Shown: positions 28,370 to 30,355 of the stretch, in pieces
How the letters are laid out: each line of letters opens with the position of its first letter
Position numbering within the stretch: the stretch's first letter is position 1
From: Bacteriovorax sp. BSW11_IV
GTDB taxonomy: Bacteria; Bdellovibrionota; Bacteriovoracia; Bacteriovoracales; Bacteriovoracaceae
Direction: 5' to 3'
Assembly: GCF_000447755.1 (NCBI RefSeq)
Contig: NZ_AUNE01000010.1
Coordinates: forward strand, 124,001-188,000
DNA: 64,000 bases
The notes under the pieces: generated by a model
Databases searched by the model: none
Told to the model about the DNA's origin: nothing
The model's input: the letters and a program-made list of their open reading frames with translations, nothing else
Position numbers and translations under genes: made by a program

Positions 28370-29458
28370 ATGGATATGAGTACAACTAACGAAAATACTA
28401 CACCAGACTTCTTACAAGATAAGGGTCTTACATTTAAAAAAGTAAGAGCTAATTTTTGGGCACTTTTTATCGACGTGTTCATGTGGTCATACACAATATT
28501 AGTTTCTTGGAAGATCATTTATGAAAAAATCATTCTTGGTCTTAGATTCCCTGAGTTTTCTTGGAATCAACCACTAATCGCCCTAGGAGCAGGTGCAGTT
28601 GTTGCGATTGCTCTTCATATGACAAAGCTATCAATTGGTAGAGCTTGTATGGGCCTAATGAAAAGAGATGAGAATAAGCCAATTTTCAGAGAGCCATTTA
28701 TGGCCTTTGGACTTGTCATTATTATCCTAACTTTCATCGCTGGACTTTTTCTTTCTCAAGTTTCGATTAGAGAGTTCTTGTCTGCAAGTGGTCTTATTGG
28801 TGCGAAAAGAATCTTTACAGCTCTTTTTAACCCTAACTTTAACATTATTGCTGATGCGACATTTGCAGCAGTTGAGACAATCTACATGGCGTTTATCGCT
28901 ACAGCTTTCTCACTGCCATTTGCTTTCATTCTAGCTTTCTTCGCTGCAAGAAACCTTATGAGTGGATCACCATTAACAATGACAATTTACTCTCTTGTTC
29001 GTTTTGTTCTAAACGTTTCAAGATCAATTGAGCCACTAGTTTGGGCGATTATCTTCTCAGTATGGGTTGGTATTGGTCCATTCGCAGGTATGTTAGCTCT
29101 TATGCTTCACTCTGTATCTTCACTTTCAAAACTCTACTCAGAGCAAATTGAAAATATTTCAGAAGGTCCAATTGAGGCCATGACAGCAACAGGAGCTCAC
29201 CCAGTTCAAGTTATTTGGTACGGGGTTGTTCCACAAATCGTTCTTCCTTACCTATCGTACACAATCTACAGATGGGACATCAACGTTCGTATGGCCACAG
29301 TTATCGGTCTAGTTGGTGGTGGGGGTATTGGTACAATGCTAATGCAGTACCAAGGTCTTGCTAAGTGGAATGAAGTAGGACTACTTGTTATCGTAATCGC
29401 AGTTATCGTTTGGGTGATGGACTACCTATCATCTCAAATCCGCGAAGCTATTAAGTAG
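28370..29458 (+). CDS. phnE: phosphonate-type ABC transporter permease
   Basis: 362 aa inner-membrane permease with the MetI-like fold. The cytoplasmic coupling (EAA) loop is 'EGPIEAMTATGAHPVQVI', as in PhnE. It is longer than the usual 260-280 aa because of an N-terminal extension with two extra membrane helices (about residues 28-85). It forms the channel with PhnC. The operon is followed by the tandem hairpin/terminator region rather than an ordinary terminator. Confidence 0.92.
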   Translation: MDMSTTNENTTPDFLQDKGLTFKKVRANFWALFIDVFMWSYTILVSWKIIYEKIILGLRFPEFSWNQPLIALGAGAVVAIALHMTKLSIGRACMGLMKRDENKPIFREPFMAFGLVIIILTFIAGLFLSQVSIREFLSASGLIGAKRIFTALFNPNFNIIADATFAAVETIYMAFIATAFSLPFAFILAFFAARNLMSGSPLTMTIYSLVRFVLNVSRSIEPLVWAIIFSVWVGIGPFAGMLALMLHSVSSLSKLYSEQIENISEGPIEAMTATGAHPVQVIWYGVVPQIVLPYLSYTIYRWDINVRMATVIGLVGGGGIGTMLMQYQGLAKWNEVGLLVIVIAVIVWVMDYLSSQIREAIK

Positions 29459-29550
29459 GCCAATAGAATGCTCCAGTGGAGCATTCTAACTTGTCCTATT
29501 GCACATTCTAGCGGGCCATCCTCTTACACATGAGTTTGGCCTACTCCAAG

Positions 29551-29580
29551 ATAGGATCTCAAATCGAGATCCTTTTTTAT
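29551..29580 (+). terminator. Rho-independent terminator, repeat unit A
   Basis: AGGATCTC/GAGATCCT (loop AAATC) followed by T6. It probably also ends readthrough from phnE. Confidence 0.85.
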
Positions 29581-29742
29581 TACCTCAGAGCATTCCAACT
29601 TTCTTTTCTTGCACATTCTTGCAGAAAACTTCTTACACATGAGTCCGATCTATACAAGTTATGCTCCAGTGGAGCATTACTACGGCTTTTATTGCACGCT
29701 CTAGCGGTTAATTTTTTACACATGAGTTAAGGCTACAATAGA

Positions 29743-29773
29743 AAGGATCTCGAAATGAGATCCTTTTTTATTT
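29743..29773 (+). terminator. Rho-independent terminator, repeat unit C
   Basis: AAAGGATCTC/GAGATCCTTT (10 bp, loop GAAAT) followed by a T-run. It is very similar in sequence to the unit A terminator and reaches into the stop-codon end of the convergent ATPase gene. Confidence 0.85.
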
Positions 29774-30355
29774 AATACTATTAATGACATTCTCAATAGA
29801 CATAATTCCATACATAATCTTTTTCACAAAAGATTCGTTTGAACTTACAAGAGAAAATTTTGGGTGCTTTGACCAAACGGCCTGTAGTTTCTTATCAAGT
29901 TCAATGGCCTTTTGAGCGTCTTCATTTCGATAAGGGTTATTACTTGAGATATCATTTCCTGAAGCTGCCCCAGTTTCAAAAAAGATGACTGCATCATAAC
30001 GAGATAGCTCTTCTTCATAACTAGAGTGCATTGTTGCAAAAAACTCTTCTTCAGTTCCTGGCCAATAGGCAAGGCCATCTAGAGTTCCTCTATCACAAAT
30101 AAGAAGTCTTTCTGGATGCTGGACACTAACAATGGTTTCCATATCTTTTTGTAAATTGAATATGGCCTTTTGTGTTGCTCTCACAACTTCTTCAGAATCA
30201 GTTCTTTCAATTCCACTTGCAAATATTAAAGTTGCTGCTTCAGAGACGACACTTACTTTTCCACACAGTTCTCTGCGAAAAAGATCAATGGCCGTAGTTT
30301 TACCACCACCTGGACCACCAGTAATAACGACTTTTAAACTTCTTTGTGTATTCAT
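29768..30355 (-). CDS. P-loop ATPase (AAA_28 / NadR-kinase-like)
   Basis: 195 aa with Walker A ITGGPGGGKTT (about residues 11-21), 'VSEAATLIFASGIERT' and 'LLICDRGTLDGLAYWPG' (Walker B with DRG), the pattern of AAA_28-domain proteins related to nucleotide or nicotinamide-riboside kinases. Cytoplasmic; substrate unknown, though a small-molecule kinase is likely. It follows the CBS-domain gene by 18 bases, and all three minus-strand genes 29768-32002 could be one transcript. Confidence 0.82.
   Translation of the reverse strand: MNTQRSLKVVITGGPGGGKTTAIDLFRRELCGKVSVVSEAATLIFASGIERTDSEEVVRATQKAIFNLQKDMETIVSVQHPERLLICDRGTLDGLAYWPGTEEEFFATMHSSYEEELSRYDAVIFFETGAASGNDISSNNPYRNEDAQKAIELDKKLQAVWSKHPKFSLVSSNESFVKKIMYGIMSIENVINSIK

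Follow-up and report, generated by a model that had tools for sequence, protein, structure and literature searches.

What kind of unit is repeated at the end of a phn operon in Bacteriovorax sp. BSW11_IV, and does it occur elsewhere? In the 64,000-nucleotide stretch of DNA analyzed here (the window), the arrangement TTGCAC-N18/19-TTACACATGAGT is present 3 times 3′ of a phnE-like ABC permease gene (28370–29458; this and all features below lie on the forward strand), with the first box starting at 29499, 29609 and 29692, and the second at 29524, 29633 and 29716; three matches to the second box were obtained in 0 of 100 dinucleotide shuffles. All the features that the initial annotation listed after phnE, namely, three pairs of boxes, two hairpins and a terminator in each full unit, were found in their places: perfect hairpins at 29464–29488 and 29661–29677, and terminators of the form AGGATCTC..GAGATCC plus T6 at 29553–29578 and 29743–29770, the latter two, described as near-identical, sharing 88% identity over 33 nt.

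The unit at the end of phnE

The layout proposed initially, in which hairpin, boxes and terminator form one unit, holds for the hairpin and boxes but missed an outer stem and included a terminator that lies outside. The 5′ arm of this stem, AGTAGGCCAA (29454–29463), contains the phnE stop codon (TAG, 29456–29458) and is a perfect 10-bp complement of the 3′ arm, TTGGCCTACT (29536–29545); the stem (P1) encloses the hairpin TAGAATGCTCC-AGT-GGAGCATTCTA (P2, 29464–29488) and a one-sided bulge (29489–29535) with both boxes, TTGCAC (29499–29504) and TTACACATGAGT (29524–29535). Thus, the true unit 1 extends from 29454 to 29545 and ends ahead of the intrinsic terminator of the phn operon (29553–29578).

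Unit 2 (29588–29653) is a decayed tandem copy that, as first described, keeps both boxes but only half of the hairpin (GAGCATTC, 29588–29595) and has no terminator; its 3′ arm is degenerate. Unit 3 (29652–29736) has the intact hairpin (29661–29677) and both boxes, its P1 is unpaired, with no outer stem matching that of unit 1, and the duplicated terminator (29743–29770) follows it. Units 2 and 3 seem to have arisen locally, by tandem duplication of unit 1 together with the phn terminator, in agreement with the duplication of the whole unit suggested initially, and the boxes are identical in the three units because these are duplicates. The simplest history would involve insertion at the phnE stop codon, followed by tandem duplication of the element along with the operon terminator, after which unit 3 probably lost P1, and unit 2 half of the hairpin and the terminator. 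The terminator was copied in this way at the phnE locus only, and the unit common to the family described below lacks it.

A dispersed family of folded elements

BLAST searches with the region yielded matches to the hairpin at unrelated loci, on contig C30 of the same genome as well as in several genomes from a different genus. The matched loci are built alike: an outer stem that varies encloses the palindrome TGCTCCAGTGGAGCA, followed by a bulge and, ahead of the second arm of that stem, GAGTT; the exact palindrome is found in 9 of the 129 Bacteriovoracaceae genomes surveyed, including 10 copies in genome G003. A covariance model built from 19 aligned copies detected members in ~20 of the 129 genomes, so that the units expected in relatives do exist; weak matches near E=0.01 were left out of the membership. 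Searches at the order and class levels covered these same 129 genomes. The numbers of copies per genome are lower bounds, given that no more than 35 candidates in each were scored: at least ~26 in G003, at least ~8–15 in each of G007, G009 and G015, and 0 in several G003 congeners. A scan of genome contigs with one exact pattern retrieved two MAGs, one labelled Bacteriovorax sp. and the other Bdellovibrionales, and the core palindrome was not found in viral contigs. Unit 1 matches the model with 67.5 bits over 29456–29544, unit 3 with 37.1 bits and broken P1 pairs, and unit 2 is below detection. Unit 1 therefore belongs to a dispersed Bacteriovoracaceae family of ~87-nt folded elements.

The phnE downstream region carries no element in the other 29 loci of relatives examined, and in the congener G002 a plain terminator follows phnE. 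Other matches to the 12-mer TTACACATGAGT alone within the family Bacteriovoracaceae do not lie in comparable units. In Rfam, the sole match above the gathering score for the window region and eight relatives was a neighboring tRNA, and literature searches returned no description of the element; the family is apparently undescribed, as the initial annotation had supposed.

Two helices kept by compensating changes

In the family fold, the 10-bp P1 is stacked directly on P2, the two being continuous on the 5′ side, and a one-sided bulge of ~45–50 nt lies on the 3′ side. The bulge of unit 1 aligns to the family bulge ACTTCGCTTGAAAA..TAAAAAG..AACTTCGTATTAAGAGT, with TTGAAA at the position of box 1 and TATTAAGAGTT at that of box 2. 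The letters of P1 and P2 vary between copies and complementarity is kept, that is, both helices are maintained through compensating changes. Among 72 aligned copies, which are mutually related and whose covariance-model alignment leans to its own structure, 96.4% of the pair cells are paired, compared to 70.3% in shuffles (and at most 49% in slid controls), 305 cells are changed on both sides, compared to 67, and the covariation score is 0.623, compared to 0.131 in shuffles and no more than 0.087 when the arms were slid; double changes were seen in all 9 modelled P1 pairs and in 9 of the 10 P2 pairs. A simple check of the P1 arms, limited to the outer 7 pairs, gave 6.5 of 7 paired, against 2.5 in shuffled arms, with 64 distinct outer arms (7-mers) in 73 copies. 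The length of P1 is fixed at 10 bp, and pairing drops sharply beyond it. G-U pairs occupy 11 of 1344 cells, and G-T mismatches outnumber A-C mismatches (13 vs 4; one-sided p 0.025). In 51 of the 60 classed copies, but not in unit 1, the end of P2 coincides with, or shortly precedes, a stretch of four or more T; convergent copies and operon-internal ones show no significant difference in such runs.

Two loci depart from this fold. In G009 (L284, G009:C92:39070-39900), the long perfect hairpin GTAGACCAAAAAAAAGCTCC-TTAG-GAGCTTTTTTTTGGTCTAC, which has no bulge, lies right at a stop codon, after the orthologue of the gene that precedes the G003 copy L170. After lon in G007 (L268), there is an apparent remnant of an internal deletion, the P1 arms of which, GTGATCAAA/TTTGATCAC, are those of the G003 copy.

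Position at stop codons and tRNA genes

Copies are found at gene 3′ ends, oriented with transcription and in most cases placed precisely on the stop codon. For 49 of the 74 copies, the end of a co-directional ORF falls between −6 and +14 of the element start, the stop-to-element offsets peaking at 0 and −3, and few antisense ORFs end in that range. The stop-docked genes include those which, from their sequences and operon neighbors, we take to encode FliE, PheS, a FabZ-like protein, Lon, MutS, RpoD and PhnE; the gene that follows is co-directional in about half of the cases and convergent in the other half. Copies in other genera, and the one at the second locus of the same genome, are located just 3′ of a tRNA gene; they share the direction of the tRNA in 8 loci, and several are inside a duplicated tRNA 3′ fragment.

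Three loci (L142 in G111, L212 in G113 and L139 in G038) are partial tandem duplicates of tRNA genes (Gly, His and Leu), with the element positioned at, or close to, the T-arm or the variable loop. At another locus (L182, G009:C36), the element apparently spans the entire gap between two genes that converge, and each arm of P1 contains a stop codon.

How copies are gained and kept

Where G003 sites were compared, the corresponding position in most congeners is empty and not palindromic (in G006, for instance, pheS is followed by TTTTAATTAAGG); the idea of P1 as a pre-existing palindrome was thereby rejected. At the sites that are shared between species (fliE, rpoD and others), P1 is paired despite differing letters, with compensating changes and a few decayed cases, although 4-fold sites between the species sharing copies are only ~35–57% identical. 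The combination of empty orthologous sites with pairing kept at shared ones implies that the elements enter new sites and thereafter remain folded, through selection or continued correction.

Possible roles and origins

We place first, with moderate confidence, a role in the transcript over one in the DNA, and give about an even chance to the specific proposal that the element forms a structure at the 3′ end of transcripts, both mRNA and tRNA, and spreads by insertion. A helix of ~20 bp would begin at the stop codon and offer the bulge, as a single strand, for contact with a protein or RNA, shielding the upstream message from 3′–5′ decay or affecting ribosome release. The element could sit between cistrons or be the sole structure between convergent genes, and new copies would arise by some insertion mechanism. 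The direction relative to transcription and the docking on stop codons favor the transcript role, whereas the scarcity of G-U pairs, turnover of sites, and tRNA copies favor a DNA hairpin substrate; both may be true. The G-U content is below the expectation for pairing in RNA only, so that pairing at the DNA level is possible, and the T-runs at the end of P2 imply that transcription might stop before the bulge. Only tentatively do we propose a new class of element that docks on gene 3′ ends in the direction of transcription and in which structure carries the identity, each copy having its own outer stem, built in part from the host stop codon and its complement, and rebuilt at every site by insertion or by later evolution.

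A smaller yet substantial probability goes to non-autonomous mobile DNA whose folded single strand would be the substrate of a structure-reading recombinase (cf. attC and the IS200/IS605 ends), inserting at gene 3′ ends and at copies of the tRNA T-arm. The presence or absence of the element at orthologous sites, its uneven copy number, from at least ~26 in G003 to 0 in several congeners, the fixed P1 with its sharp boundary, the almost exclusively Watson-Crick pairs, and the copies within duplicated tRNA 3′ fragments would all be accounted for. However, stop-docked and tRNA-side copies are all oriented alike relative to transcription, shared copies stay paired in species with near-saturated neutral sites, and no clear target-site duplication was detected: none of the junctions has an exact duplication of 3 nt or more, and a 2-nt match is present in 11 copies vs 5.3 expected. 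Nor did a search for an enzyme single one out, as the counts of Y1 transposase, reverse transcriptase and tyrosine recombinase (integrase) genes do not track the copy number, and the Y1 genes are not flanked by the element, a copy being nearby at only one of the Y1 loci examined (in G005, contig C114).

An unlikely source of the covariation, in place of selection, is quasi-palindrome correction, in which template-switch repair would act on dead palindromes that are dispersed. Such repair would explain why part of P1 was already present as the end of the gene, the opposite arm being complementary to it (as at a histidine-kinase site and phnE), the near absence of G-U pairs, and the bulge-less hairpin at the orthologous site in G009, but correction should delete the bulge, which nearly all copies keep at near-constant length and with conserved sequence, and the excess of G-T over A-C mismatches also speaks against it. 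Least credible, and highly improbable, are tandem promoters of very short RNAs, the reading of the boxes as −35 and −10 elements in the initial annotation. Two conserved hexamers 18–19 nt apart, followed by terminators, would suit it; yet, a promoter scan found no sigma-70-like match at the boxes, and family members elsewhere have TTGAAA and TATTAAGAGTT at these positions and lack the window's hexamers and terminators there.

Relation to known systems

Like REP/RAYT repeats, the element is a small palindromic repeat found at gene 3′ ends and within operons, but GTAG is not constant at its foot, occurring at the start of 10 of 73 copies, its stems vary with compensation and bear a one-sided bulge, and the tested Y1 genes are not flanked by it. 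ERIC/RU and other bacterial MITEs are likewise ~100-bp non-coding dispersed repeats that fold, and ERIC often lies near stop codons; the present element differs in having no fixed terminal inverted repeat, as the diversity of its outer arms attests, and no clear target duplication. With integron attC sites, it shares a conserved structure with variable sequence and the co-directional location right after a stop codon; however, RYYYAAC (R″) is present in 0 and GTTRRRY (R′) in 1 of 73 copies, and the element occurs outside cassette arrays, after core genes such as rpoD, pheS, mutS and fliE. Finally, P2 often resembles the A5-hairpin-T5 of an intrinsic terminator, but the element has in addition the conserved bulge and P1, and is also operon-internal (pheS-pheT, fabZ-lpxA and the fliE-fliF region).

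Small dispersed repeats are usually recognized by constant sequence. Here, the sequence is free, pairing is kept, and the position with respect to the stop codon is fixed, which offers a clean test of what a structure does when placed where a message ends, and of how an element spreads with ends that are different in each copy. For this lineage of predatory bacteria, in which few non-coding elements have been described, it is also a strong candidate RNA or DNA motif.

Some copies, mostly tRNA-side ones, are followed by a further, partly shared 3′ segment, ..GGATGG..GAGCAGGATGCGG.., perhaps a second domain (L206, L207, L210 and L214, in G049, G057 and G047). In the 3′ flanks of four others, located at different genes (L126, L186, L200 and L159), there is a CAACCGCTTATGCCTGAAAT-like sequence, which in L200 is duplicated along with the 3′ arm of P1.
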